A stretch of 64,000 nt of DNA, taken from the NCBI GenBank assembly GCA_039028635.1, contig JBCCHV010000001.1, positions 1 through 64,000 of the forward strand. Direction: 5' to 3'. Source of the stretch: Acidobacteriota bacterium (GTDB lineage: Bacteria > Acidobacteriota > Thermoanaerobaculia > Multivoradales > JBCCEF01). Positions 8,089 to 53,104 of this stretch are shown here, in pieces. Position numbers and translations under genes: made by a program. Under the pieces are notes generated by a model. That model made no database searches. It was not told where the DNA came from and worked only from the letters and a program-made list of their open reading frames with translations. Numbering within the stretch: the first letter of the stretch is position 1; the number at the start of each line of letters is the position of its first letter.

Positions 8089-9263
8089 GCGCTTCCGGGG
8101 CGGTGATCGGCGATGCCTCGGCCCTCGAGCACCTGGTCGACGAGCTGCGCAGTGTCGGCCGCTTCGCCATCGACCTGGAGTTCGTTTCAGAGTCGCGCTA
8201 CGTCCCCGAGCTGTGCCTGGTGCAGGTGGGTTGGGGCGAGGTCGAGGACCCCCGGGTCGCGGCCGTCGATCCGTTGGCGGTGGACGTCGGTTCCCTGGCG
8301 CAGCTCGTGGCGGATCCCGCCGTCGAGAAGGTGCTGCATGCCGGCCAGGCGGATCTCGCCCTTCTCGGCCAGCGCTTCGCAGTCCGCGGTCGCAACGTCT
8401 TCGACACCCAGATCGCAGCGGCCTTCGTCGGCGTCGGCGATCAGATCGGCTATGGCCCGCTGGTCGGCCGGCTGCTCGACCTCGAGCTCGACAAGGGAGC
8501 CCAGTTCACCCACTGGGATCGTCGCCCGCTGGCGGCGGAGCAGCTGCGCTACGCCCTCGATGACGTGCGCTACCTGCCTCGGCTCCACCGCGAGCTGGTG
8601 CGGCGCCTCGAGGGCCGGCAGCGCCTCGCCTGGGTCGCCGAGGAGTCGAAACGACTGGCCGAGACCGCCGCCACTCGACCGGCGCCGGGCGATCGCTTCC
8701 TCAAGGTCAAGGGCTGGGACCGGCTGCGTCCGCCGGCGTTGGGTGCGCTGCGGGCGCTGGCCGCCTGGCGCGAAGAGCAGGCCCTCGAGCGCAATACACC
8801 GCCGCAGTGGATTTTGCAGGACCGGGTGCTGCTCGAGATCGCTCGCCGGTTGCCCAAGTCGACGCGTGACCTGGGCGCCATGCGTGGCATCAAGGACGGT
8901 CTGGTGCGCCGCCACGGCAGCGCGCTGGTGGAGATCCTGCAGTCCGGCGCCGGCAACCCCCCGAGCCTGCCGAAGCGCCCCAAGCCGCTGAGCGATCGCG
9001 GCAAGGTGTGGAGCGCCATGGCTTCGGCCATCGTTCAGGCCCTGGCGCGGAAGGCCGGCGTGGCGCCGCGATTCCTGGCGGCTCGTGACGATCTCGAGAG
9101 CCTGGTGCGCTGGTACCTGTCGGGCAATGACGTCGAGCCCGAGATTCCTCTGCTGCAAGGTTGGCGGCGGGAGCTGGCCGGTGCTGCGGTCTGTGATTGG
9201 CTGGCCGGAGGATCGGCGATCATCGCCAGCGAGCAGGGGATCGAGCTCGTCTCCCGTCGCTGA
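8085..9263 (+). CDS. rnd: Ribonuclease D
   Basis: 3'-5' exoribonuclease trimming tRNA and other RNA 3' ends. At 392 residues it has the DEDDy exonuclease domain first: FAIDLEF (Asp30, Glu32), [11 protein letters not shown], and [11 protein letters not shown] with the Tyr and last Asp. An HRDC-like helical region follows around 210-290 ([32 protein letters not shown]). The start ATG overlaps the RNase H stop as ATGA, so two RNA-processing nucleases are translationally coupled. E. coli RNase D is 375 residues, so the length fits. Confidence 0.93.
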
Positions 9264-9292
9264 ACCCAGGATCGGTGGCGACAGCCTCCGCC

Positions 9293-9325
9293 AAAATCAA
9301 AAAGAGGCCATCCGTGAGGATGGCC
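9293..9325 (-). terminator. Rho-independent terminator of the DUF4397 gene
   Basis: On the minus strand a perfect 8-bp stem GGCCATCC/GGATGGCC with loop TCAC is followed directly by a T-rich tract (TCTTTTTGATTTT). It lies about 95 bp past the stop of the gene at 9421. Confidence 0.85.
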
Positions 9326-9341
9326 GTGGGAGGGTTGAGAT

Positions 9342-9370
9342 GGAGGACCGTCGGGGCCGGACGGTCCTCC
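9342..9370. other. Perfect 11-bp hairpin between convergent genes
   Basis: GGAGGACCGTC (9342-9352) and GACGGTCCTCC (9360-9370) pair completely across a 7-nt loop. There is no T tract on either side. It may add to transcription stop or mRNA end protection for rnd and the convergent DUF4397 gene. Confidence 0.55.
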
Positions 9371-9420
9371 GTGAAACGGCGGCTGCGAAGGACCGCCGAT
9401 GCCATGATGGCGAAAGAACG

Positions 9421-10446
9421 TCAGTTGGCGCAGGCGAAGGCGGTGGTGTCGCCGAAGGAACCGAAGTTGCGCGCCTCGTTGCGGTAGACGCGGTTCTCGC
9501 CGGTGGCCGTGTAGGTCACCCGGATGTCGTACTCGACGTTGCTGAGGGCGCCGTAGAAGAACCAGAAGAAACCGTTCTCACTGCAGCCATCGAGGGACTT
9601 GATCACCAGCTCGATATTGTCGTCGTCGAAGAACCAGAAGAAGCCGCTCTCGGCGGTGCGGCCGACGGCGCGGCCGAAGCCGGAACGGTTCTCGAAGTCG
9701 GTCCAGTCGACCTCGACCCGGATCTGGTCGTTGGCCACGTAGAGGGTGCGGTCAGCGGCACCATCGGCCACCAGGCCGGTGGCGTAAGCGGTGTAGATGG
9801 TGTCAGCGTTGAGCATGATGCCGGGAAGCGTCAGGACCACCGTCTGGGTGCCGGCGACCCGCACCTCGAGATCATAGGTGTTGGCCGGCACGGAGATGTA
9901 GTCGCTCGCCTCCTGGAAGGAGATGTTCGGGAACAGCACCGCGCCGCCGTTCGCCAGCGCGATGTCGACCGCCGGCGCATCGGCCGAGCCGTGGAGGAAG
10001 CGCACCTTGGCCTCACCAGCCGCCGGAGCGGCGTTGTCGTCGACCAGCACCAGCGGCGTGATGTTGGCGAGGAGATCCGAAGCCACCACCGTGTAGTCGG
10101 TGCCGGCGGTGAGGGTCAGATTGGCGTCGATCACGAAGGGACCCGCGTTGTTGGCGCCGGCGGGCTCGACCTGCACCTGGTAGGTGCCGGCCGGCAGCAT
10201 GGCGTAGTCGGTCACCTGCTCGAAGGGAATGTTCTCGAAGGCCAGACCACCGTCGACGCGCACATCGACGTTGGGGGCGTCGGGCGAGGCGTGGACGACG
10301 CGAACCCGCACCATGCCGGCGCCGGGGCTGCCGCCGTCGACGCTGATAACGGCGTTGAGGGGCGCCGGCGAGGCGACGGCGGTGCCGGTGAACACGGTGG
10401 TGAGAAGAACTGCGAGAGCGGACAGAAGAGCAGTCTTGGACTTCAT
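9421..10446 (-). CDS. Secreted DUF4397-domain protein with paired GFFWFF tail
   Basis: A 341-residue exported protein. It has a Sec signal peptide ending near ...TAVASP. Two DUF4397-type beta domains follow (about 42-140 and 145-235), each with VRVVHASPDAP or VRFLHGSADAP and a D-x-Y-x-x-x-P-A block. These domains occur in anchored surface proteins; their ligand is unknown. The last ~110 residues are a separate domain with GFFWFF twice around FDDDNIELVIKSLDGC. The start at 10446 has GGAGG six bases upstream; the earlier ATG would sit inside that site. A terminator follows. Function unknown. Confidence 0.8.
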   Translation of the reverse strand: MKSKTALLSALAVLLTTVFTGTAVASPAPLNAVISVDGGSPGAGMVRVRVVHASPDAPNVDVRVDGGLAFENIPFEQVTDYAMLPAGTYQVQVEPAGANNAGPFVIDANLTLTAGTDYTVVASDLLANITPLVLVDDNAAPAAGEAKVRFLHGSADAPAVDIALANGGAVLFPNISFQEASDYISVPANTYDLEVRVAGTQTVVLTLPGIMLNADTIYTAYATGLVADGAADRTLYVANDQIRVEVDWTDFENRSGFGRAVGRTAESGFFWFFDDDNIELVIKSLDGCSENGFFWFFYGALSNVEYDIRVTYTATGENRVYRNEARNFGSFGDTTAFACAN

Positions 10447-11720: not shown

Positions 11721-13993
11721 CGGACGACCGGTAGGGGCGGATCGCGGCGGAAGATGCGCTTGTGGGGCGGCAAGGCTCCGCGGCGGAAGAGCTCGGCCTC
11801 GGCGCCGCGCCGTTCGGCGCGCACTCGGCGACCGGTCTTGGGGTCGTAGTAGTGCTGTTCGACGGCGCGCGGCGCCTCGACCTGGCGCGGCGCCAGCGAG
11901 CCCGCCGCGCTGGCCACGAAGGACTGCCAGATGGGGGCCGCCGCGGCCGCCCCGGAGAGGCCGGCGCGACTGTTGTCGTCGACTCCCACCCAGACCACCA
12001 CCACCATCGAGCCGGCATCGCCGGCGAACCAGGCGTCCCGGCCATCGGAGGACGTACCGGTCTTTCCGGCGACATCGAAGCCGGCCACGGCGCCGCCGCG
12101 GGCGGTGCCCTCGCGGGCAGCGGTTCGCATCATGTCGCGCACCAGGTAGGCGCTCGCCGGTCGCACGACGCGTCGGGCGGCGCGGCCCGAGCGGGCCAAC
12201 AGGGAACGGCCGAGGCGGCGGCCCCCGGGGCGTTCGAGGCTCTCCACCGGGAAGGGGCGCAGGGCTTGACCGGGAGTCGCGAACACGGTGAAGGCCTCGG
12301 CCAGGCGCAGCGGGCTGGTCTCGACGGCGCCGAGGGCGAAGGACGGCGGTGGCTCGGCGGGTAGGGCGAGGCCGGATTTGCGCATGCGGGCCGCCGTCGG
12401 CCCCAGGCCGCACCAGCCGGCGATGCGGGCGAAGGGGACGTTGAGGGAGCTCGACAGGGCGTGCCGCAGGCTGACCACGCCACGGAACTCACCGTCGTTG
12501 TTGACCGGGCGCCAGGAACCCGAGGGCAAGTCGAGGGTCAAGGGCTCGTCGGCGATGCGCGCCGCGGGATAGAGCGGTCGCCGTTCGCCACAGCGCTCGA
12601 AGGCTTCGAGGAGGAGCAGGGGCTTGACCGTCGAGCCGGGCTGACGTTGCGCCTGGCGGACGCGGTCGAAGCGATCCTCCTCGCGGTCCGGGTCGCCGGC
12701 GACGTAGGCCAGCACCCGCCCATCGCGCACGTCGAGGGCGACGAGGGCCGCCGACAGGGGTCGGTTGCGCAGCCGTCGACGCTGCCGCTTCAGCCGCGAC
12801 AGGCCGTCGCGCACGGCGCCTTCGGCGAGGCGCTGGAGCTGGGGGTCGAGGGTGGTCGAAACCACCACGCCGCGACCCTTCTCGAGACGACCGGCGGCCG
12901 ACTCCCGGGCCACCTCTCCCACCCAGCGCACGAAATGGGAGGCGCTGCGGCGAGGCGGCGACGAAGGCCTCAACCCGAGCCCGCGAGCTTTGGCTCGGGC
13001 GATCTCTTGGGACGGGGCCCACTCGAGCTCTGCGAGGCGCGACAGAACCCAGTCCCGACGCGCCCGGGCGCGCTCCGGATGGCGCCGCGGGGAGAGCCGA
13101 TTGGGGCCTTGAACGATCGCCGCCAGAAGGGCGCTTTCAGCCCAATCGAGCTCTTCCGGGGGCTTCGAGAAGTAGGCCCGGGCACCGGCGCCCCAACCGT
13201 GAAGGGCCAGGCCGTCCACATGTCCGAGATAGACATGATCGAGGTAGGCCTCGAGAATCTCCTCCTTGTCGTACTCGGCTTCGAGGGTGAGGGAGCGCAC
13301 CGCCTCGGAGACCTTGCGGCCGAGGGACCGCTTGGGCGTCAGGTCGCGCATCTTGATCAGCTGCTGGGTGATCGTGCTGCCGCCTTGAGCGACGCCGCCG
13401 GCCTTGACATTGGCGAGGGCGGCGCGAGCGATGGAGCGGCCGTCGAGGCCGCGGTGGGTGAAGAAGCGGGCGTCTTCGGCGGCCAATAGGGGGCGCCATG
13501 CGCGCTCCGGAAGGTCCGCGAAGCGCAGCCGGTGGCGCGGCGCCCGGTCGCCGGCGAGGGACTCTGCCAGCACCTCCGCCTCGAGGGACCAAGAGTCGAT
13601 CGCCAGGGGTGTACCGGTGGCGTCGAGGAAGCCTTCGATGCGGCCGTCGGAGCGGCGCAGCTCGAGGCCGATCAGGCGAGCTTGTCGGTTTCGCGAGGCA
13701 TAGGGATCGGCCCGCTGGTAAATCCAGAAGACCTCGTAACCCCAAAAGAACTGGCCGACCTCGGTGGGCTTCCGCCGCACCCGCCGATAGCCCAAGGCCT
13801 CGAGCCGGTCCTCGAGTCCCAGGGCCGCCACCGTGGTCCCCGGAGTCAGCTCGTAGCGAGACGACAGGACCCGCACATCGCTACGCCCCAGGGTCTCCGT
13901 CAAGCGAAGTTCAGAGGCGCCGGCGGAGGCCCCGCCAAGGGCCAGCGTCAGCAGCACCAGGGCAAGGGAAAGGACGGGAATGATGGGGCGCAT
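11717..13993 (-). CDS. Bifunctional penicillin-binding protein (PBP1b-like)
   Basis: Polymerises and cross-links peptidoglycan at the inner membrane. At 758 residues it shows: an N-terminal hydrophobic segment (3-26) as signal anchor or signal peptide; a UB2H-like region (about 40-120); glycosyltransferase 51 with EDARFFTHRGLD (catalytic Glu173) and GGSTITQQ (205-211); and transpeptidase motifs S454-TVK, S516-L-N and K644-TGTS. The UB2H-like region makes PBP1b the closest match, with PBP1c as the alternative. The start has GGAG six bases upstream. The TAG stop lies in the CTAG border of the repeat at 11506-11720. The domain set is complete, so it is likely functional. Confidence 0.9.
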   Translation of the reverse strand: MRPIIPVLSLALVLLTLALGGASAGASELRLTETLGRSDVRVLSSRYELTPGTTVAALGLEDRLEALGYRRVRRKPTEVGQFFWGYEVFWIYQRADPYASRNRQARLIGLELRRSDGRIEGFLDATGTPLAIDSWSLEAEVLAESLAGDRAPRHRLRFADLPERAWRPLLAAEDARFFTHRGLDGRSIARAALANVKAGGVAQGGSTITQQLIKMRDLTPKRSLGRKVSEAVRSLTLEAEYDKEEILEAYLDHVYLGHVDGLALHGWGAGARAYFSKPPEELDWAESALLAAIVQGPNRLSPRRHPERARARRDWVLSRLAELEWAPSQEIARAKARGLGLRPSSPPRRSASHFVRWVGEVARESAAGRLEKGRGVVVSTTLDPQLQRLAEGAVRDGLSRLKRQRRRLRNRPLSAALVALDVRDGRVLAYVAGDPDREEDRFDRVRQAQRQPGSTVKPLLLLEAFERCGERRPLYPAARIADEPLTLDLPSGSWRPVNNDGEFRGVVSLRHALSSSLNVPFARIAGWCGLGPTAARMRKSGLALPAEPPPSFALGAVETSPLRLAEAFTVFATPGQALRPFPVESLERPGGRRLGRSLLARSGRAARRVVRPASAYLVRDMMRTAAREGTARGGAVAGFDVAGKTGTSSDGRDAWFAGDAGSMVVVVWVGVDDNSRAGLSGAAAAAPIWQSFVASAAGSLAPRQVEAPRAVEQHYYDPKTGRRVRAERRGAEAELFRRGALPPHKRIFRRDPPLPVVR

Positions 13994-42169: not shown

Positions 42170-43585
42170 TCAGGAAGGGGTCCGGCTCGGTGCCGCCGGA
42201 CCGCTCGGCAGGCGCGACATGCGAGCCTGGATTTCCTGCACCCAGCGCAGGGTGGCGGTTTCCATCTCGAGCGCTCGCTGCAGCATCAGCAGGGCCATGG
42301 TGGCGTCGTCGTGGAGGCCGCTCAATCCGAGCAGGGGCAGCATCTCACTGGCCAGGTGGCGGGCTTCTCGTCCGCGGCCCTCTTGCAGATAGAGGGCGAC
42401 GATGTCGAGACATACCAGGGCGGCCTCGTAGCCGATGTCTTCCGCGATGAAGCCGTTGCGGGCTCGCCGCAGCAGCTCTTCACCGCGTCGCGATTCACCG
42501 ATGGTGATCAAGGCCATGCCTTCGAGCCAGTAGAGGCGCAGCAGGTCGAGGGCGCCACCGTGATCTTCGGCGAGGCGTTGCACCTTGGGTAGCAACTCCA
42601 GGAGCTGTGGGATCAGCTCGCAGTCCCGCAGGTAGGTCGCCAGGTTGTGGTACGCGACCAGCAGCAGGCGGGGCTCGCGCTCGCCATCGATCAGCTCGAG
42701 AGCTCGTTCGACCACCGGGATCGCGCCCTCCGGGTCGTCGGCATAGGACAACGTCATGGCCTTGTAGAGCAGAATTCGGCCTTCGCCGTGACGGTCTTGG
42801 AGCCAGCGATGAATGGCGGCGGCTTGGGCCAGCAGGCGGTGGGCGTCATCGAAGCGCGACTGCAGACGGCGCAGGCTGGCCAGGAAGCCGAGTAGCTCGG
42901 CGCGGGCGCGGGGGTCCTTGCTGCCCTGGGCGAGCAGTCGGTCGGCTTCGGCGAAGCTGACATCGGCGGCGCGAAAGTTCCCCAGGATGCGCGAAACGTT
43001 GCCTTGGTAGGTATGGGCCTGGGCTTTGAGGTCGAGCACCCGGGTGACTCCGTAGGTCTCCGGATCCAGCTCCTGAACCAGTCTGACGGCCCAGGCGACG
43101 AGGTTCTCGGCCCGTTTCGGGTTGTCCGACCAGCAACCCTTGATGGTGCGCAGCAGCAGGGCGACGAAGCCGGCGGAATTGAAGCGCCGAGGAAGGTCCG
43201 GACCGGTAGGATCGGCGAGGGAGTACTCGAGCTCGCGCAGTAGCTGGCGAGCCGTCGTTTGCTCTTCGACTCGGCGGTGGCGGATCTCCGTCAGGCGGTC
43301 TCCGGCGAGGAGAAAGGCGTTGTCGTAGCGGTCCTGATCGGTCACCGCTGGGAGGACCGAAGCCTTCGAACGACGGCACGAGGTGCGCAGCGTCTTGAGC
43401 CACTGGGAAGATGCCGAAGGGACCATTCCAAAGGGCGATTCGACGCTCAGCAGGGCCTCGACGAGGAGCTGCGGCGCGAGGCTCGCCTCGACCCCGGAGG
43501 CGCGGAGAATCTCGTTCGCCTCGGCGCGCTGCTCGCTGAGCAGCGCGGCCATTCGACGGTGGGCCTTGCCTTTGGATTGATCCAT
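42170..43585 (-). CDS. Tetratricopeptide-repeat protein
   Basis: A 471-residue helical protein. No signal peptide; the N-terminus MDQSKGKAHRR is basic. Repeats such as AELLGFLASLRRLQSRFDDAHRLLAQAA and ALELIDGEREPRLLLVAYHNLATYLRD fit TPR-like helical pairs of 34-40 residues, covering about 110-430. Proteins of this layout are common next to signalling genes and usually act as scaffolds. The start is unclear: ATG 43585 has no good ribosome site, and an ATG at 43609 is possible. Followed by a long gap and a terminator. Confidence 0.68.
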   Translation of the reverse strand: MDQSKGKAHRRMAALLSEQRAEANEILRASGVEASLAPQLLVEALLSVESPFGMVPSASSQWLKTLRTSCRRSKASVLPAVTDQDRYDNAFLLAGDRLTEIRHRRVEEQTTARQLLRELEYSLADPTGPDLPRRFNSAGFVALLLRTIKGCWSDNPKRAENLVAWAVRLVQELDPETYGVTRVLDLKAQAHTYQGNVSRILGNFRAADVSFAEADRLLAQGSKDPRARAELLGFLASLRRLQSRFDDAHRLLAQAAAIHRWLQDRHGEGRILLYKAMTLSYADDPEGAIPVVERALELIDGEREPRLLLVAYHNLATYLRDCELIPQLLELLPKVQRLAEDHGGALDLLRLYWLEGMALITIGESRRGEELLRRARNGFIAEDIGYEAALVCLDIVALYLQEGRGREARHLASEMLPLLGLSGLHDDATMALLMLQRALEMETATLRWVQEIQARMSRLPSGPAAPSRTPS

Positions 43586-43822
43586 TGCTTGGATTATGTA
43601 CCTTCGCATCTTCTGAAACAAGGGTGCGGGCTCGAAGCGAATTCGGGACAAAGATCGTGGCGCACGCCTTCCAGCCGGCGCCTCGAGACCGCAATCCCTC
43701 GACATTTTACTGATCTTCCGAAGGCCTTCCGACCGGCCGGTGCGGCTGGCCGAGCCGGTGACCGGAGACCGCGCCAAGCTTCTCCGACGGTCCCGTTCGT
43801 ACTCTTCGCGGGGGTGTCCGAC

Positions 43823-44391: not shown

Positions 44392-45741
44392 GTGCGCTTC
44401 GCCTTAAGTCGGGCTACGGTGTGGATTGCCGTGGGCTTGTTGAGTGGCTCCGGAATCGCGGCGCAGGAGGAGCGGCGGTTCGATTTCGAGGTCGAGGTCA
44501 AGACCCACTATCGCGACTCGGAGCCATTGCGCCTGCAGCTTCCTCTGCTGCGACTCCCGGACGGCACGCCCCTGCTGCCGGAGGCGCCGGCCCTCGAGAC
44601 GGTCGATCCCGGAACTCATCTCGAGGTGTCGACGGCCACCCTCTATGTCGATGCCGAGTGGGGTGACAGCCTCGCCGCTCACCTCAAGATCGACGTCATC
44701 GATCTCTACGACCGCAATCCCACGTCGACGGATCAGGACGTCGACGTCGACGAGGCATGGATTCGACTGGGTCGCGAGAGCGAGCCGGCGATCCTGCCGG
44801 AGCGCTCCGGGGGTTACGTCAAGATCGGCAAGTTCCCGCACTTCGAGCGCCAGGACGATCGCCATCTGGAGAGCTACGGTCTGGTATCGACGGCCTTCAA
44901 TCGCTTCGAGGATCTCGGTCTCGAGGCCGGCGTCGATCTCGGCCGCCACGTTTACCTGAAGGCCTCGGCGACGCAGGGAAACCCGGTCTTTATGCGCGAC
45001 CCCAATGCGCTGGCCGGAGACAACGGCACCCGCGACCAGGTGGTCCTCGGCCGGGCGCCGCGGCTCAACAGCGGAATCGTGATCCCCTACGACGCCGAGG
45101 TCGAAGACATCAATGGAGAAACCGACCTTGAGATCGGCCTCGGCCTCGGAGTGCGCTTCGGCGGCGCCGCCGGCGACGACGGCGTCGACGCCCTGGTCTG
45201 GGGCTATCGCCGTGATCTGGCCGAGACGGTGGTTCTCGAGGGCACCGAGTACGGCGGTGACCTCGACCTGCTGGGCGGACCCCTCAATCTGTTCCCGTTC
45301 CCCACCACCGGCGATGAGAAGGAAGAGTTCGGGGTCAACCTGTGGGCTTATTGGGGCGGCTTCACGGGCTTTCTGCAGGCCGTCGATCAGGATCTCGCCG
45401 GCCTCGAGCGTACCGGCCTGGAAGTCGAGCTGGCGTGGCGCTTCGATCTTCCGGTGCGCTGGGCCGTCGGAGGACGCCAGCTCTTTCCCTATATCGCTCC
45501 AGCGGTTCGCTATTCGCGTCTCGAGCCGGACTTCGGCAATCCCGCCGGTGGCCCGACGCCGAGCTTCACCTGGGAGTGGGAGAAGGTCGACCTCGGCTTG
45601 CGTTTGGGGTTGGTTCCGGGCGCCGACCTGACGATCGAGCATGCCGACAACGAGTTCATCCTCGCCTCCGGGGCGTCCGTCGGCAACGACGAGCTCTTGA
45701 CGACGGTCCGTTGGCGTTTCGGGCGGGGGAGCGGTTCTTGA
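44392..45741 (+). CDS. Porin-like outer membrane beta protein, first gene of signalling operon
   Basis: A 449-residue exported protein. GTG at 44392 begins a signal peptide (RFALSRATVWIAVGLLSGSGIAA); earlier TTG codons give no signal peptide. The mature protein is a series of amphipathic strands such as YVKIGKFPHFERQDDRH and FDLPVRWAVGGRQLF ending in VRWRFGRGSGS, with regularly placed Asp/Tyr/Trp. That is an outer-membrane barrel, probably a porin-type channel; no exact family. It overlaps the cupredoxin gene by 4 bp. What it imports is unknown, but copper or an electron carrier would fit the neighbour. Confidence 0.7.
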   Translation: MRFALSRATVWIAVGLLSGSGIAAQEERRFDFEVEVKTHYRDSEPLRLQLPLLRLPDGTPLLPEAPALETVDPGTHLEVSTATLYVDAEWGDSLAAHLKIDVIDLYDRNPTSTDQDVDVDEAWIRLGRESEPAILPERSGGYVKIGKFPHFERQDDRHLESYGLVSTAFNRFEDLGLEAGVDLGRHVYLKASATQGNPVFMRDPNALAGDNGTRDQVVLGRAPRLNSGIVIPYDAEVEDINGETDLEIGLGLGVRFGGAAGDDGVDALVWGYRRDLAETVVLEGTEYGGDLDLLGGPLNLFPFPTTGDEKEEFGVNLWAYWGGFTGFLQAVDQDLAGLERTGLEVELAWRFDLPVRWAVGGRQLFPYIAPAVRYSRLEPDFGNPAGGPTPSFTWEWEKVDLGLRLGLVPGADLTIEHADNEFILASGASVGNDELLTTVRWRFGRGSGS

Positions 45742-46418
45742 TCCGACGTTTCGGGGCCTGCCATGCCCTGATCCTGCTGGCCGCGGTGCTGGCGCCGGCC
45801 TCGGTGGCTTCGGCCGCGGTGCTGTCGGGACAGGTGCAGCTCGTCACTCGCAGCGGTCGACCGATCACGACCAGCGGTGACGTGGTGGTGATCTATCAGC
45901 CAGACCAAGGGCTGGAGAATCTGCAGCCCCTCGAGCTCGAGATCGAAACCCGCAAAAAGAAGTTCACCCCGCGGGTCACGGTGCTGCCGGTCGGCAGCTC
46001 GGTGCGATTCCCGAATCGCGATCCCATCCTGCACAACGTCTTTTCGGTGTCGAAGGGCAATGCCTTCGACCTCGGTCTCTACCGCGCCGGTGCCGGCGAG
46101 ACGGCGGTCTTCGAAACGGCCGGTCTGGTGAGGGTCTACTGCAACGTTCACCAGGAGATGGTGGCCTACGTCTGGGTGGTCGAGACGCCGCACACCACGA
46201 TCGCCGACGGCAAGGGGCAGTTTCGTCTCGAAGGTCTCCCGGACGGCCCTGGAACCTTGACCGTCTGGCATGAACGAAGCGACGTCAAGGTGGTTGAGCT
46301 GGCCGCGCCGCGAGCGCTTCGGGAACCGCTGCGCCTGCGGGCCTATCGACCGCGGGTGCCGAAACACCTCAACAAGTTCGGGAGATCCTACGGGCGTTCG
46401 CGACGTGACCGCTACTAA
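45738..46418 (+). CDS. Exported cupredoxin-domain protein
   Basis: A 226-residue periplasmic protein starting at TTG (45738) with GGGGAG six bases upstream. Signal peptide: ACHALILLAAVLAPASVASA. A plastocyanin-like fold is seen with a complete type 1 copper set: His99 (PILHNVFS), Cys135, His138 and Met141 in YCNVHQEM. The C-terminal stretch LEGLPDGPGTLTVWHE is a short Ig-like/carboxypeptidase-regulatory-type loop. Related proteins are labelled methylamine utilization protein, but no such pathway is here. TTGA overlap with the porin gene. Likely an electron or copper carrier; the sensor behind it suggests it could report copper or redox state. Confidence 0.82.
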   Translation: MIRRFGACHALILLAAVLAPASVASAAVLSGQVQLVTRSGRPITTSGDVVVIYQPDQGLENLQPLELEIETRKKKFTPRVTVLPVGSSVRFPNRDPILHNVFSVSKGNAFDLGLYRAGAGETAVFETAGLVRVYCNVHQEMVAYVWVVETPHTTIADGKGQFRLEGLPDGPGTLTVWHERSDVKVVELAAPRALREPLRLRAYRPRVPKHLNKFGRSYGRSRRDRY

Positions 46419-49008
46419 ATCGAAGGGCTGGTCTCCGGGCCTGGGGGCTCGGATCTTCCTGATGACCGGGCTGTTCATCGCCCTGGCCGTCGGAGCGGCC
46501 TTGCTCTATGCCTTTCTGGAGGCGCGCGGTATTGCCGGCGAGAGCGTCGCGGAGGACTTGAGGGAGAGCTCCGCAGCCCTCGCCGAGCTGCGCGAGGTGC
46601 GCCTCGATCGCCTCGATTTCGATGCCCGCCAGCTCGCCGGCGACCCCTATGTCGCGGCCCTCTTCGCCGAGGCCGCTGATTCCGGCGACAGCCTCTCGAT
46701 TCGCGACCTGCTCGAGGAGCGGCAAGGGGATGTCGGCTACGACTTCGCGACCGTCGTGACCCTGGACGGTGTGGTGGCGGCCTGGACCGGTCGTCCCGAT
46801 GCCGCCGGCACCGATCTCTCGCGGCGGCCGCTGTTGGCGACCGCCCTCGACGAGGGGGCGGCGGCCGGCTTCTGGCGAGACCAAGACTCTCTCTACGACG
46901 CCGTCGCGGTGCCCGTGGGGCGGGGTTTCGAGCTGCTGGGTTATCTGGTCACCGGCTACCGCTCCGCCGGCGGCGTCGAAGAGACCGCCGCCCTGAGCAG
47001 CTCCCAGCTGGCCTATGCCGCCCCTGCCGCGAGCGCCCTCGAGCTGCGCGGCACGACCCTCGGCGACGATGTCCACCGGGCCCTGATCGCCTCCCTGGCG
47101 CGACACCAGGCCGAGGTCGAGCGGGTACTGGAGAGCGGTGACACCGTCGAAGGGTTGGAGCTCGACCTCGCCGGTGCCCCTTGGCTGGCGCAGCTCGATC
47201 CTCTGCGGGACGCCTCCGGAGAGCCCGTCGCCCTGGCCGTCACCCTCGACTCCCTCGACCGTCGGATGGCTCCCTTCCGCGCCATCAGCCGCGCCCTGCT
47301 GTGGGCGGGCATCGGGTCGGTGTTGTTGGCCCTGGCGCTGAGCTACTGGTTCGCCCACCGCACGCTGCAGCCGGTGCGGCGCCTGGTGACAGCGGCGACC
47401 GCGGCCCGTTCCGGCGACTACGACCAGGAGATCGCCGTCGAGCGCGGTGACGAGGTCGGAGAGCTGGCCGGGTCGTTCAACGCCTTGATGAGCGATCTGC
47501 GCGAAAAACGTGACATGGAGAGCTATCTCTCGGAGCTCTCGCGCAGCTTGCCGGAGGGTGGTTTGGCGCCGACCGCGCGCCAGGTGTCGGCCTTGCGCGG
47601 CCTCGATGGGGTGCTGGTGGCGATCGAGTTCCGCGGCCTCGCCCGGGGAACTTCCGATGCCGCCAAGGCGGCCCGCCAATGGGACGCCTCGGTGCGCATC
47701 GTCGAGCAGGTGGTCGAGCGCCGCGGCGGCGCCATCGACGCCCTCGCCGGCCATCGCCTGTGGGCACGATTCGAGGGCGAGGATCGCGGGCCGCGGGCTC
47801 TCGCCGCCGCCGCCGAGATCCTGCAGGGCTTCGAAGAGGGCGATCTGCCGGTGCTCGCCCTCACCCGCGGCCGTTGTACGGTGGGCTCCTCTTCCGGCGA
47901 CGGACGACCCCGCGCCCTGCTGGTGGGGCCGGCGGTGCAACAGCTCGAAGGCCTGGTGCGGGAGGCCAGTCCCGGCGAGATCATTTTCGGTCGGCCGATC
48001 TTCGAAGAGCTCTCGGATTACCTCCAGAAGGCTGGCTTTTCGCTCGCCGAGCGGCGCGGTGTGTTGATTCCCCAGCCGCTCTACATCCTGTCCGGCCGCT
48101 TGGCTTCGCGCCTGACGGCGACGGTGCCGCGGGTGACCACCACCACGCCCACGGCAGCGATGCCGGTGCGGCCGACGCTCTCGGACATTGGCCCGGGCAG
48201 TCTGGTGGGGGGGCGCTTCGAGATCCTCTCGGTGCTCGGCGCCGGCGGCATGGGGGTGGTCTACAAGGCGCGCGATCGCGAGCTCGAAGATCTGGTGGCG
48301 GTGAAGATGCTGCGGTCGGATCGTTGGCGCGACACGGCCCTGGTCGAGCGCTTGAAGGAAGAGCTCAAGCTGGCGCGCAAGATCACCCATCCCAACGTCT
48401 TGCGGACCTTCGACCTGGGCGAGATCGACGGCACGCCGTTCATCTCGATGGAGTACGTCCGCGGCGTCACCCTCCGCTTCCTGCTCGATCGCACCGATCG
48501 TCTGCCCTATTCCGCCGGCCTGCGCCTGGCGCGGCAGCTCTGTCTGGGGCTCGAGGCGGCGCACCAGGTCGGCGTGGTGCATCGCGACATCAAGCCCGAG
48601 AACCTGATCCTCGAGCCCAACGGCAACGCCAAGCTGATGGACTTCGGAATCGCCCGGCCGGTCGATCGGATGACCCCGGGGCAAACCACCGACGGCTCGA
48701 TCGTCGGCACGCCGCAGTACCTGGCGCCGGAGGTGCTCGAAGGCAACGAGGCGGATCCGCGCTCCGATCTCTATGCCGTCGGCGTGGTTCTCTACGAGAT
48801 GTTCACCGGGGCGCTGCCCTTCGCCGGCACGCCCCTCGAGGTCATCGCGGCGACGGTGCGCGAGGAGCCGAGACCGCCGCGCGACCTGTGGCCCGAGATC
48901 CCGCCCTCCTTGGCGGACCTGATTCAAGACTGTCTGCACAAGCAGCCGGAAGAGCGACCGTCGTCGGCCGGTGCACTGATCGCGCGCCTCGACGGGTTGC
49001 GAGCCTGA
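46405..49008 (+). CDS. Membrane sensor Ser/Thr kinase with HAMP and degenerate cyclase domain
   Basis: An 867-residue protein. Two membrane segments (about 15-37 and 297-316) bracket a periplasmic sensor of roughly 260 residues (cache-like). A HAMP domain follows (about 318-375, RTLQPVRRLVTAATAA). Residues about 395-560 resemble a class III cyclase (VAIEFRG, RRGGAIDALAGHRLWARFEG, ASPGEIIFG) but lack its catalytic Asps. The Hanks-type kinase is at about 603-860, with LGAGGMGVVYKAR, HRDIKPENL and DFGIARP intact, and faces the cytoplasm. GTG at 46405 overlaps the cupredoxin end by 14 bp; the true start may be later. It joins the two halves of the operon: envelope sensing and cytoplasmic signalling. 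Confidence 0.85.
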   Translation: MTATKSKGWSPGLGARIFLMTGLFIALAVGAALLYAFLEARGIAGESVAEDLRESSAALAELREVRLDRLDFDARQLAGDPYVAALFAEAADSGDSLSIRDLLEERQGDVGYDFATVVTLDGVVAAWTGRPDAAGTDLSRRPLLATALDEGAAAGFWRDQDSLYDAVAVPVGRGFELLGYLVTGYRSAGGVEETAALSSSQLAYAAPAASALELRGTTLGDDVHRALIASLARHQAEVERVLESGDTVEGLELDLAGAPWLAQLDPLRDASGEPVALAVTLDSLDRRMAPFRAISRALLWAGIGSVLLALALSYWFAHRTLQPVRRLVTAATAARSGDYDQEIAVERGDEVGELAGSFNALMSDLREKRDMESYLSELSRSLPEGGLAPTARQVSALRGLDGVLVAIEFRGLARGTSDAAKAARQWDASVRIVEQVVERRGGAIDALAGHRLWARFEGEDRGPRALAAAAEILQGFEEGDLPVLALTRGRCTVGSSSGDGRPRALLVGPAVQQLEGLVREASPGEIIFGRPIFEELSDYLQKAGFSLAERRGVLIPQPLYILSGRLASRLTATVPRVTTTTPTAAMPVRPTLSDIGPGSLVGGRFEILSVLGAGGMGVVYKARDRELEDLVAVKMLRSDRWRDTALVERLKEELKLARKITHPNVLRTFDLGEIDGTPFISMEYVRGVTLRFLLDRTDRLPYSAGLRLARQLCLGLEAAHQVGVVHRDIKPENLILEPNGNAKLMDFGIARPVDRMTPGQTTDGSIVGTPQYLAPEVLEGNEADPRSDLYAVGVVLYEMFTGALPFAGTPLEVIAATVREEPRPPRDLWPEIPPSLADLIQDCLHKQPEERPSSAGALIARLDGLRA

Positions 49009-49009
49009 G

Positions 49010-50218
49010 ATGATCGAGCCGCGCCTCAACCTGCAGCTCGGCCTCCCGTCGGCACTGCCCAAGGACGGCGAGATCGAGGATCTCCGCCGTCGCCTGTCGG
49101 AGGTCGAGAAGCTCCTCGAGATCAGCGGTGAGATCGGTCGCACCCTCGACCTCGACCGGCTCCTCGACCTCGCCCTGGTGCGAGCCGAGGAAGTGTGCCA
49201 CGCCGAAACCAGCTCTATCTGGGAGCTCGACGAGGAGCGCCAGGAGCTCTTCTTCCGGGTGGTGCGCGGCAAGGCGGCCCCCGGCATTCGGGGACTGCGG
49301 GTGCCGGTCGGGGAAGGCATCGTCGGGGCGGTGGCGGCGAGCGGTCAGCCGGAGATCGTCAACGACGTGTCTTCCGATTCGCGCTGGCGCGGCGAGCCCC
49401 TGCAGGGCTTCGAAACCCGCTCCCTGCTGACCGTGCCGTTGGGCGTTCAGCGGCGCGTGGTCGGCGTCATGCAGCTACTCAATCCGGTGGATGCGGAAGG
49501 CTTCACCCTTGGCGACCTGTGGCGCATGAACGTCTTCGCCGGTCCTCTCGCCCAGGCGATCGACAACGCCCGTCTGTTCGCCGAGCGCAAACGCCAGTTC
49601 TTCGACACGGTGACGGCCCTGGCGGAAGCGACGGAGCTGCGGGATCCCTATACCGGCGGCCATTCGAATCGCGTCACCGCCTACTCGCTGCTGTTGGGAA
49701 GCGAGCTGGGCTTGGGGGTCACGGAGCTCGAAGAGCTGATGCTGACCGCCACGCTGCACGATGTCGGCAAGCTGGCGACGCCGGACTCGATTCTGCGCAA
49801 GCCGGCGCCGCTGTCGACGCAGGAGAAGGAGGTCATGCGGCGACACCCCGCCGATGGCGCCGAAATGCTCGCCAAGATCCACGGCCTGCGGCACGTCGTC
49901 CCGGCGGTGCGCGCCCACCACGAGCACATCGATGGCGGGGGCTATCCGGACGGCTTGCGCGACCAGGAGATCCCCTACTCGGCGCGCATCCTGGCGGTCG
50001 CCGATGCCTTCGACGCGATGGTGACGGAACGTCCCTACCGCCAGGGGCTGGCGCCGGTGGAGGCGGCGCGGCGAATCGTCTCCGGCGCCGGCACGCAGTT
50101 CTGGGAGCCGGCCGTCGAGGCCTTTGACCAGCTCTTCGACGGTGATCGCTGGGTCCTCGACCACGGTCGTCGGCTCGGGCGCGGCTTCCTCGGTCTCTCC
50201 ACCGGCCGCGAACTCTGA
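49010..50218 (+). CDS. GAF and HD-GYP phosphodiesterase
   Basis: A 402-residue cytoplasmic protein: a short coiled region, GAF domain (about 35-180, with LLTVPLGVQRRVVGVMQLLN) and an HD-GYP domain (about 195-385). All its hallmarks are there: HSNRVTAYS, LHDVGK, RRHPADGAEML, AHHEHIDGGGYPDGL and VADAFDAMVTERPYR. HD-GYP enzymes degrade cyclic-di-GMP. One base separates it from the kinase gene and two from the cyclase gene, so all three should be made together. The GAF ligand is unknown. Confidence 0.92.
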   Translation: MIEPRLNLQLGLPSALPKDGEIEDLRRRLSEVEKLLEISGEIGRTLDLDRLLDLALVRAEEVCHAETSSIWELDEERQELFFRVVRGKAAPGIRGLRVPVGEGIVGAVAASGQPEIVNDVSSDSRWRGEPLQGFETRSLLTVPLGVQRRVVGVMQLLNPVDAEGFTLGDLWRMNVFAGPLAQAIDNARLFAERKRQFFDTVTALAEATELRDPYTGGHSNRVTAYSLLLGSELGLGVTELEELMLTATLHDVGKLATPDSILRKPAPLSTQEKEVMRRHPADGAEMLAKIHGLRHVVPAVRAHHEHIDGGGYPDGLRDQEIPYSARILAVADAFDAMVTERPYRQGLAPVEAARRIVSGAGTQFWEPAVEAFDQLFDGDRWVLDHGRRLGRGFLGLSTGREL

Positions 50219-50220
50219 CC

Positions 50221-51777
50221 ATGCTGCGGTTGCGAATCTCCTCGCCGGCGGGGGAGCAAACCTTCGATCTCGGCGACGAGCAGGTCACCATCGGGCGCGG
50301 GCGCGACAACTCCATCGTCCTGGCGGATCCCTCCGTGTCCCGTCGTCACTGCGAGATCCACCGCCAGCCGACCGGCTGGGAAGTGGTCGATCTGGGAAGC
50401 ACCAACGGCGTGTTGCTCGACGACACGCTGGTTTCCAGGGGGCCGATCGAGGCCGGCACGCGCCTCACCCTCGGGACCTTCGACGTGCTGGTCGAGGATC
50501 GGGGGCCGACGGTGAGTACGGTGGACGACGAGGCGCAGGTCATCGTCCGCCTCGACAACCTCAAGTCGGTGCTCGAAGACAAGGGCCAGGAAACGCAGAT
50601 TCTGGCCGCCCTGGTACAGCTCGCCGAAAAGCTGCTGCGCGCCGACCGGGTCGAAGATGCCGCCCGCGCCGTCATGGACGCGGTCTTCGCGGCGGTGTCG
50701 GTGGATCGCGGTTTCCTGTTCCTCAAGCAGGACAGCCACCTGGTGTGTGAGCTGGCGCGCTTTGGCGATCAGGTGGTGATGGCACCCTCCGGCGTGGTGC
50801 CGGTGTCGACCACCATTCTCAATACGGTGATCGAGCAGGAGGTGGCCCTGGTCACCACCGATGCCCGCGCCGACCATCGCCTCACCGGTGGTGAGTCGAT
50901 CCGCCTGCATCAGATTCGCGCCGCCCTGTGTGTGCCGATCTGGTCCGAGGGCGGAGTGATCGGTGCCGTTCATCTCGATTCGCCGATCCGATCCGAGATC
51001 TTCGGCGAGCGCGATCTCGAGATCGCCACCGCCCTGGCGAGCTACGCCGCGATGGCCATCGAAGGGCTGCGCAACGTCCATCGCCTGGAGGTCGAGCGGC
51101 GTTCTCGGGAGCGGCTGGCGCGCTATCACTCGCCGGCGGTGGTCGACGAGATCCTGCAGGGCGAGGCGCAGCGCCAGCATCCGCTACGCACCATGGAGAC
51201 GACGGTGCTGTTCGCCGATCTGGTGGGGTTCACGCCGGTGGCGGAAAACGCCGGCCCGAAGGCGGTGGCGGACTTCCTCGGCCAGTACTTCGACCGCGCC
51301 GTCGAAGCGATCTTCGAGTTCGGCGGCACCCTCGACAAGTTCATCGGTGATTCGGTGATGGCCTTCTTCGGCGCGCCGGTGGCGCAGCCGGATCATGCCG
51401 CCCGAGGCGTGCGGGCGGCCCTCGCCATTCAGCGGGCCGTCGCCGAGTGGAGCGTCGAGCGAGAGAGCAAGGGCGAGCAGCCGATCTACGTGCGGGTGGC
51501 TCTCAACAGTGGACCGGTGGTGGTGGGCGAGATCGGCAGCGAGAAGCGCGTCGAGTACACGGTGTTGGGCAACACGGTGAATGTCGCCGCGCGGCTCGAG
51601 GATGCCGTCGCGGGTCCGGGAGAGATCGTCATCGGACCCCACACCAAGGCCCAGCTACCGGGCGCGTTTCTCTGCGAGGGCCTCGGCGAGACGCAGCTCA
51701 AGGGGTTGAGTCGGCCGGTGCGGGCTTACCGCGTCGAAGGTGAGTTCGCCGAGCTCGCGGAGCCCGACGATGCCTGA
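50221..51777 (+). CDS. FHA-GAF-adenylate/guanylate cyclase
   Basis: A 518-residue cytoplasmic protein. FHA domain (1-95) with GRGRDNSIVL, SVSRRHC and GSTNGV, which binds phosphothreonine and would read a kinase's output. GAF domain (about 125-280). Class III cyclase at about 320-500: LFADLVGFTPVAE with the metal Asp, GGTLDKFIGDSVMAFFGAP with the second Asp, and EYTVLGNTVNVAARLE; the Lys in DKFIGD and the Asp-type pattern suggest adenylate cyclase. The FHA domain beside a Ser/Thr kinase gene suggests phosphorylation could control cAMP production. The last 52 bp overlap the 3' end of trmL on the other strand. Confidence 0.92.
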   Translation: MLRLRISSPAGEQTFDLGDEQVTIGRGRDNSIVLADPSVSRRHCEIHRQPTGWEVVDLGSTNGVLLDDTLVSRGPIEAGTRLTLGTFDVLVEDRGPTVSTVDDEAQVIVRLDNLKSVLEDKGQETQILAALVQLAEKLLRADRVEDAARAVMDAVFAAVSVDRGFLFLKQDSHLVCELARFGDQVVMAPSGVVPVSTTILNTVIEQEVALVTTDARADHRLTGGESIRLHQIRAALCVPIWSEGGVIGAVHLDSPIRSEIFGERDLEIATALASYAAMAIEGLRNVHRLEVERRSRERLARYHSPAVVDEILQGEAQRQHPLRTMETTVLFADLVGFTPVAENAGPKAVADFLGQYFDRAVEAIFEFGGTLDKFIGDSVMAFFGAPVAQPDHAARGVRAALAIQRAVAEWSVERESKGEQPIYVRVALNSGPVVVGEIGSEKRVEYTVLGNTVNVAARLEDAVAGPGEIVIGPHTKAQLPGAFLCEGLGETQLKGLSRPVRAYRVEGEFAELAEPDDA

Positions 51778-52232
51778 CGCTGGCGCAGCACTTCGTAGAG
51801 AGCCAGGGCCACGGTGGTGGAAAGATTGAGCGAGCGCAGCTCCGGATCGGCCATCGGCACCGCGACGGTGCGCTCAGCGAAGCGCTCCAACAGTGGGCGG
51901 GGCAAGCCGGTGCTCTCGCGGCCGAAGATCAGGACCGGGTTCCGGCCGTAGTCGGCACTCCACAAATCCCGCCGTCCCTCGGGGGCGAAGAAGAAGAGCT
52001 CGCCGAGATCCTCAGTGGCGGTGTGGAACTCCTCCCAGCAGGACCACAGGTGCGGCTGGACCCGCGGCCAGTAGTCGAGGCCGGCGCGGCGCACCCGCCG
52101 ATCCGAGAGCTCGAAACCGAGGGGCTCCACCAGGTGGAGCTGCGCGCCGGCGGCGAGACAGGTGCGACCGACGTTGCCGGCGTTCCAGTGGATTTCCGGT
52201 TCCACCAGCACGGCGTGAATGGTTGGGCTCAC
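51726..52232 (-). CDS. trmL: tRNA (cytidine/uridine-34 2'-O)-methyltransferase
   Basis: A 168-residue SPOUT-fold enzyme that 2'-O-methylates wobble base 34 of certain tRNA-Leu. Seen: VLVEPEIHWNAGNVGRTC near the start, LIFGRESTGLP and SLNLSTTVALALYEVLRQ, the knot that binds S-adenosylmethionine. The chosen GTG at 52232 overlaps the agmatinase stop as GTGA. The last 52 bp overlap the convergent cyclase gene, unusual in this otherwise cleanly spaced window. Confidence 0.92.
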   Translation of the reverse strand: MSPTIHAVLVEPEIHWNAGNVGRTCLAAGAQLHLVEPLGFELSDRRVRRAGLDYWPRVQPHLWSCWEEFHTATEDLGELFFFAPEGRRDLWSADYGRNPVLIFGRESTGLPRPLLERFAERTVAVPMADPELRSLNLSTTVALALYEVLRQRQASSGSASSANSPSTR

Positions 52233-53104
52233 GACGCCTTCTGCTGCAGGTAGCCGAGGCACTTGTAGACCAGCTTGGCGGCCAAGAAATCGGGTGCCGT
52301 GAGGCCGCCGATGGGGGCGAGCTCGACGACATCCATGGCGACGACCCGCTTATTCTCGAACAACAGACGAAGCAGCTCGAGGGTGGGGTACCAGAGGCCA
52401 CCGCCGGGTTCCGGCGTGCCGGTGGCGGGGACCAGGGAAGGATCGAAATAGTCGAGGTCGAAGGTCAGGTAGACCGTCTCTGGGAGGTCCGCGAGGAGGT
52501 CCGCGAAGCGCTCGGCGAGGTCCCGCCGAGGCAGGTCGTGGCCCCACAACACCGGCATCCGGAGCTGGCGCACCAGGGACGCTTCCGGCACCGAGAGGGA
52601 GCGCACTCCGACCGCCAGGGAGGGGAATCCCTGCTCGACGAGGCGGCGCATCACCGAGGCATGGCTGTAGCGGGTACCGTCGTAGGAATCGCGCAGATCG
52701 GCATGAGCGTCGAACTGCACGATGCCGATGGCTTCGCTGCAGGTCCTGGCTGCGGCCCGCACCGCCGCCTGACTCAAGCTGTGCTCACCGCCGAGGGTGA
52801 CCAAGAAGCGGCCGGCTTGCAGGGGAGCGAGGCAGGCTTCCTCGATCTCTGCCAGGGCGGTCTCCAGATCGAAAGCTTCCGGCAGGAAGGCCGGCAGGGT
52901 CTCGATGCCTTGCAGCCAGGGCTCTGACTCGAGCTCCTCGTCGTAGAGCTCGAGGGCCTGGGAGGCGCGCAGGATGGCGGCCGGGCCTTCGCTCGTCCCC
53001 TTGCCGTAGGAAGTGGTGCGCTCGAAGGGCAGCGGAAGGATGGCGATTCGCGGCTCTTCGGTCGGCTTTGCGAGCTGGCCGAAGGCGTGGGGCAGATGGG
53101 GCAC
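52229..53104 (-). CDS. speB: Agmatinase
   Basis: Hydrolyses agmatine to putrescine and urea, the step after SpeA (5220-7136). A 291-residue ureohydrolase with the two-manganese motifs: GGEHSLSQ, FDAHADLRD and LTFDLDYFDPS, then a Glu in GTPEPGGGLW. It is coupled to trmL downstream (4-bp overlap); the reason is not obvious. The ATG is upstream of PHAFGQLAKP with no strong ribosome site visible. Confidence 0.93.
   Translation of the reverse strand: MPHLPHAFGQLAKPTEEPRIAILPLPFERTTSYGKGTSEGPAAILRASQALELYDEELESEPWLQGIETLPAFLPEAFDLETALAEIEEACLAPLQAGRFLVTLGGEHSLSQAAVRAAARTCSEAIGIVQFDAHADLRDSYDGTRYSHASVMRRLVEQGFPSLAVGVRSLSVPEASLVRQLRMPVLWGHDLPRRDLAERFADLLADLPETVYLTFDLDYFDPSLVPATGTPEPGGGLWYPTLELLRLLFENKRVVAMDVVELAPIGGLTAPDFLAAKLVYKCLGYLQQKAS

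Follow-up and report, generated by a model that had tools for sequence, protein, structure and literature searches.

We have analyzed a 64,000-nucleotide stretch of DNA (the window; contig JBCCHV010000001.1, assembly GCA_039028635.1) from the 6.3 Mb genome of an Acidobacteriota bacterium, in which a run of five open reading frames (ORFs) on the + strand (44392-51777) encodes a barrel-like protein, a cupredoxin, a dCache_3-HAMP-kinase, a GAF-HD-GYP protein and an FHA-GAF-cyclase. We propose, with a probability of about one half, that this operon represents one form of a transmembrane receptor module coupled to a cupredoxin, with a Ser/Thr kinase as its output here and the FHA-cyclase as the probable target of that kinase. 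The conserved unit is the pair formed by the cupredoxin and the dCache-HAMP receptor, of which the operon in the window is an elaborate local version. This proposal relies on the invariant copper ligands of the cupredoxin, its linkage to a receptor in nearly all loci, the exchange of receptor outputs, the homology of the receptor N-termini, the recurrence of FHA genes and the presence of a dead cyclase domain within the kinase. It is further supported by the fact that activation of receptors by accessory periplasmic proteins is established for solute-binding proteins (SBPs; PMC9602780).

Organization of the operon

The five ORFs are very tightly packed: the stop codon of the barrel gene overlaps the TTG start of the cupredoxin gene by 4 bp, the cupredoxin stop overlaps the GTG start of the kinase gene by 14 bp, and the following two gaps measure 1 bp (kinase to HD-GYP) and 2 bp (HD-GYP to FHA-cyclase). 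These junctions confirm the original prediction, made from the sequence of the window, which had described five genes that overlap or lie 1-2 bp apart. Its domain calls were also confirmed by Pfam, which recognized dCache_3, HAMP and Pkinase in the kinase, GAF and HD_5 in the HD-GYP protein, and FHA, GAF and Guanylate_cyc in the cyclase. A scan for sigma-70 promoters and terminators around the operon yielded nothing clearly exceeding chance. The arrangement itself goes beyond chance, since other genomes keep the gene order.

The cupredoxin and its copper site

The second gene (45738-46418, +; TTG start, 226 residues) encodes an apparently exported, periplasmic cupredoxin that is followed by a CarboxypepD_reg-like domain and a conserved C-terminal tail. 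Pfam gave no cupredoxin match for this gene, and just a weak one to CarboxypepD_reg. A profile built from ten relatives and compared to PDB sequences, however, matched the blue copper domain 5fc9 (E=1.4e-8) as well as several amicyanin and plastocyanin entries. In addition, the AlphaFold model (mean predicted local distance difference test score, pLDDT, of 91.6) was matched by Foldseek to amicyanin (E=1.2e-5), pseudoazurin and plastocyanin 1bxu (template modelling score, TM, of 0.78 on the target). Profile and model together confirm the cupredoxin fold, with a predicted type 1 copper site. Its ligands, H99 and C135-x2-H138-x2-M141 in an amicyanin-type short loop (46032-46160, +), were identified in alignments. 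A search performed without motif seeding gave 41 homologues, all 41 of which keep these ligands, and the His-Cys-His-Met set is present in all 74 cupredoxins of a second, named-genome set, which had been seeded by the ligand motif. The complete copper ligand set that had been read from the window is thus borne out.

The tail (HxNKxGxxY...Y; 46365-46418, +) is a candidate docking segment. Among the 41 homologues, the 38 relatives of the receptor family keep the HxNKxGxxY motif almost without change and the three sequences of CarbopepD-type paralogues lack it; in the named set, 67 of the 74 cupredoxins have the motif. It falls in the low-confidence end of the AlphaFold model, which is what a flexible docking segment would give.

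The receptor carries a dead cyclase domain

The third gene (46405-49008, +; GTG start, 867 residues) encodes a transmembrane Ser/Thr kinase. It comprises, all on the + strand, a periplasmic dCache_3 sensor domain (46552-47241; Pfam E=1.6e-7), a HAMP domain (47347-47505; E=3.9e-14), a degenerate class III nucleotidyl cyclase domain (47542-48120) and a Ser/Thr kinase domain (48220-48969; E=2e-54); dCache_3 and HAMP both exceed the Pfam gathering cut-offs. An N-terminal hydrophobic segment was detected, and a second one (residues ~297-315), below the hydropathy threshold used, was placed by eye. The kinase motifs (glycine loop, VAVK, HRDIKPEN, DFG and APE) are all intact. The best match of the kinase domain is the PknB_PASTA model, but its 298 bits cover the kinase domain only and lie below the NCBIfam cut-off of 450 bits, and assignment to the PASTA-type PknB kinases was rejected.

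The sensor-HAMP-kinase architecture that had been predicted was recovered, but a domain between HAMP and kinase had been overlooked. This region (residues ~380-572) has no Pfam name. Its profile matched class III cyclases among PDB sequences (E=6e-10), hhalign related it to the cyclase encoded by the fifth gene of the operon (E=8e-14), and the fold of its model resembles that of the adenylyl cyclases CyaB and CyaC. The catalytic residues (two metal-binding Asp, and Lys/Asn/Arg) are lost in the window and in the aligned kinase fusions, and are kept in a kinase-less relative (locus L065); an active cyclase inside the kinase was thus rejected. In several lineages there is no internal cyclase domain, and HAMP leads almost straight into the kinase. 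The simplest history would be that a dCache-HAMP-cyclase receptor gained a kinase and later lost its cyclase activity, the dead domain being retained probably as a dimerization or regulatory element.

Residues 38-300 of the kinase, in its periplasmic part, include no Cys, two His and one Met. This composition makes the cupredoxin the more likely seat of the metal chemistry, and a role of the kinase as a direct copper sensor is unlikely.

Conservation of the pair

The loci compared here are those of the best-scoring relatives; copper-ligand motifs served as seeds for the named-genome set, of which the best 80 members were kept. Of 112 distinct loci, which span Acidobacteriota, Gammaproteobacteria and Gemmatimonadota, 107 have a gene for a dCache-HAMP-type receptor no more than 4.5 kb from that of the cupredoxin, and 96 have a Ser/Thr kinase gene in that range; the pair is co-directional or, in some cases, divergent. 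The contiguous five-gene set, in turn, was found in three genomes: that of the window, one of the same genus (G001, locus L035) and one from the Holophagales (UBA5704, L078), where the tight spacing is retained. Two further loci (L080 and L083) carry the first four genes, from barrel to HD-GYP, so that an HD-GYP gene follows the kinase in L035, L078, L080 and L083. In L080, an FHA-GAF-cyclase gene is located several kb downstream on the same strand. Relatives of the FHA-GAF-cyclase (~50-55% identity) are spread over the order, and most of their genes are located at other, unlinked sites. The gene order proposed originally is therefore conserved for cupredoxin and sensor kinase, which stay together across phyla, but five genes as the conserved unit had to be rejected.

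In the contig of L080, also listed as L180 (L179 is the contig of L078), a second soluble kinase-TPR protein and another FHA domain (9013-9774 and 12597-12863) are encoded between the HD-GYP and FHA-GAF-cyclase genes.

Exchange of receptor outputs

The output of the receptor differs between lineages. Beside the same cupredoxin we find receptors ending in a kinase, in an intact cyclase (L065) or in a histidine kinase-receiver (L055, L072). In Caballeronia, Comamonas and Novosphingobium (beta- and alphaproteobacteria) the cupredoxin, annotated as 'methylamine utilization protein' or as carboxypeptidase regulatory-like, adjoins a dCache_3-HAMP-GGDEF-EAL protein. Whatever the output, the N-terminal parts of these receptors are homologous (E=1e-15). 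In one locus (L042, identical to L110; 7494-9774, -), no dCache receptor is found nearby, and the cupredoxin gene overlaps that of a GAF-sigma54 activator, which stands in the receptor's place.

FHA genes recur next to the pair. The segment 2.0-5.6 kb downstream of the cupredoxin holds 42 FHA domains, versus 9 in the 1,284 kb that make up the rest of the loci, and FHA genes follow the kinase in 20 of the 46 gammaproteobacterial loci with enough sequence. This recurrence indicates that the association of a membrane Ser/Thr kinase with an adjoining FHA protein is no accident. It lends support to the earlier suggestion that the FHA domain may be the reader of the Ser/Thr kinase. In Lysobacterales, the genes after the kinase encode a Porin_5-like barrel as well as a protein that has tandem FHA domains and is hydrophobic in a segment near its C-terminus. 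In other Acidobacteriota (L086, L089, L040, L079 and L038), an ECF sigma factor and then a small anti-sigma-like membrane protein are encoded ~3.3-4.5 kb downstream of the cupredoxin; the position of the sigma factor gene, directly after that of the kinase, suggests that the kinase may control it.

The predicted second-messenger enzymes

The fourth gene (49010-50218, +) encodes a soluble GAF-HD-GYP protein in which the HD and HHExxDGGGYP motifs are intact, and which is a probable cyclic-di-GMP phosphodiesterase. The fifth (50221-51777, +) encodes an FHA-GAF-class III cyclase. Alignment with its counterparts in L078 and L065 indicates that the residues that read phospho-threonine and the catalytic residues (D, K, D, T, N, R) are intact; the active-site motifs are LFADLVGFT, LDKFIGD and YTVLGNTVNVAAR, and the protein is predicted to be an active-type adenylate cyclase. 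The assignment of both proteins as second-messenger enzymes, put forward originally, thus agrees with the residues that they retain. No NKFDE motif, associated with binding of cyclic nucleotide monophosphates (cNMP), was seen in the two GAF domains when their sequences were read by eye. The host genome gave 11 GGDEF and about 10 cNMP-binding matches, and would have targets for both cyclic AMP (cAMP) and cyclic-di-GMP.

A proposed mechanism and its alternatives

We envisage that the outer-membrane barrel would let a solute into the periplasm, where the blue-copper protein, depending on its metal or redox state, would dock onto the dCache domain of the kinase, perhaps through its C-terminal tail. 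The HAMP domain would relay the change via the dead cyclase domain to the intact Ser/Thr kinase. A phospho-threonine on the kinase or on a target may then recruit the FHA domain of the FHA-GAF-cyclase and set cAMP synthesis, while the co-expressed GAF-HD-GYP protein would lower cyclic-di-GMP. In evolution, cupredoxin and dCache-HAMP would have remained constant, with the cytoplasmic output exchanged between lineages. The signal could be copper, redox state, nitric oxide (NO) or O2, or a solute.

A more general proposal, to which we give slightly less than an even chance, is that of a class of cupredoxin-coupled receptors in which dCache-HAMP reads the metal or redox state of the blue-copper protein and the outputs have been swapped across Acidobacteriota, Pseudomonadota and Gemmatimonadota; the kinase branch would be a former cyclase receptor that gained a kinase and kept the dead cyclase as a relay.

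Several observations weigh against the mechanism proposed for the operon. Five of the 112 relatives have no receptor near the cupredoxin, and some Wenzhouxiangella-type cupredoxins, as well as the betaproteobacterial ones, lack the tail motif. The FHA-GAF-cyclase and HD-GYP genes lie outside the conserved core, with most FHA-cyclase relatives unlinked. In a comparison of trees, co-inheritance was strong, but there was no sensor-specific excess (rank correlation of 0.81 between cupredoxin and sensor versus 0.84 between cupredoxin and kinase). Lastly, motif seeding and the restriction to 80 members mean that counts from the named set favour close relatives.

An alternative, which we regard as rather unlikely, is that a small solute is itself the ligand of the dCache domain and that barrel and cupredoxin are the regulated output, serving uptake of, or electron transfer to, the solute or copper, and co-transcribed with their regulator. 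Small ligands are the presumed binding partners of dCache domains (PMC12889525), and several lineages have a barrel gene next to the pair, with unrelated barrel families in the window and in Lysobacterales. The constant partner of the receptor is nevertheless the cupredoxin and not the barrel, and among the neighbour clusters scanned there is no recurrent oxidase, reductase or copper exporter beside the cupredoxin.

It is improbable, in our view, that the same module responds to NO, O2 or another redox cue instead of copper, with the cupredoxin acting together with a periplasmic globin where one is present. Truncated haemoglobins that seem to carry signal or lipoprotein sequences, together with DUF3034 proteins, adjoin the cupredoxin in beta- and alphaproteobacteria and in 9-10 gammaproteobacterial loci, kinase-type loci included (examples are L155, 4486-4926; L157, 3363-3926; and L149, about 8259-8756). 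The vicinity of these apparently exported globins to related cupredoxins hints at periplasmic NO or O2 chemistry, but neither the window nor the acidobacterial loci examined contain a linked globin. Finally, we consider it still less probable that the operon comprises five independent regulators on one promoter, with HD-GYP and FHA-cyclase sensing their own ligands through GAF and not being kinase targets: the last two genes are contiguous with the pair in three genomes only and, in the rest of the order, relatives of the FHA-GAF-cyclase are encoded on their own, but independent FHA genes adjoin the kinase in Lysobacterales and L078 retains the tight spacing.

Relation to known systems

SBPs are reported to activate membrane receptors that include sensor kinases, diguanylate cyclases and phosphodiesterases, and Ser/Thr kinases (PMC9602780). 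The operon resembles such SBP-coupled receptors (PMC9602780) in that the gene for a small periplasmic protein adjoins that of a receptor whose ligand domain is periplasmic, but the accessory protein here is a blue-copper cupredoxin, and its interaction with the receptor is a predicted one. The cupredoxin lies outside the solute-binding families, so that the operon would be a new version of the same principle.

The 'methylamine utilization protein' cupredoxins of Burkholderiales and Sphingomonadales are homologous to that of the window and share its ligand motif, and the N-termini of their receptors are homologous as well. Their loci differ in having a cyclic-di-GMP enzyme as output and often DUF3034 and a periplasmic globin, in lacking the C-terminal tail, and in being known from annotation only; no described function for these cupredoxin/GGDEF-EAL pairs was found in the open-access literature. 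The resemblance to PknB-type Ser/Thr kinases with FHA partners consists in the PknB_PASTA match, below cut-off, and in the FHA protein encoded alongside; dCache-HAMP input and a dead cyclase domain are found here in place of PASTA repeats. Amicyanin, plastocyanin and pseudoazurin share the fold and the C-x2-H-x2-M copper loop with our cupredoxin, which differs from electron-transfer cupredoxins in its additional C-terminal domain and tail and in its linkage to a receptor, with no electron-transfer partner. RegB/PrrB with SenC/PrrC offers a lead, since there a periplasmic copper protein is tied to a redox-responsive membrane kinase; the folds and the histidine-kinase chemistry differ.

A search confined to the open-access literature found no description of a cupredoxin-coupled receptor system, and the pair looks like a widespread, undescribed means of sensing extracellular conditions. 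If the proposal holds, a blue-copper protein would serve as a signalling input and not as an electron carrier, which would explain why 'methylamine utilization protein' genes adjoin signalling receptors. With kinase, periplasmic partner, FHA protein and second-messenger enzymes encoded in one operon, it becomes possible to test directly for cross-talk of Ser/Thr phosphorylation with cAMP and cyclic-di-GMP.

The barrel-like protein and neighbouring genes

The first gene (44392-45741, +; GTG start, 449 residues) encodes a barrel-like protein, likely of the outer membrane and probably a porin, as judged from the ORF and its homologues. The latter are found in Acidobacteriota (54-64% identity), and a homologue is encoded directly upstream of the cupredoxin in Wenzhouxiangella-type gammaproteobacterial loci (L134, L142 and L147). 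The protein ends in WRF, and one homologue gave a weak OMP_b-brl match (E=0.087), both of which would suit an outer-membrane barrel. Profile and sequence searches with the window protein retrieved no Pfam family and no PDB relative, and the porin identity that had been proposed is thus unproven. A single family uniting this barrel with the Porin_5-like one of Lysobacterales is unsupported (hhalign probability 1.5%).

In six acidobacterial loci (L036, L040, L081, L086, L089 and L103), a LuxE-like acyl-protein synthetase and/or a LuxC-like acyl-CoA reductase is encoded upstream of the cupredoxin; the upstream neighbour of the cupredoxin in L042 also clusters with LuxE-like proteins. At the 3' end of the operon, a gene for a SpoU-type methyltransferase (51726-52262, -) runs towards the FHA-cyclase gene, so that the two converge, and the overlap at the 3' end of the latter is ~52 bp. 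Upstream of the operon, a TPR protein is encoded on the opposite strand (42170-43777, -); the same-genus genome (L035) has a homologue in the equivalent position, which suggests that the TPR gene may belong to the neighbourhood.

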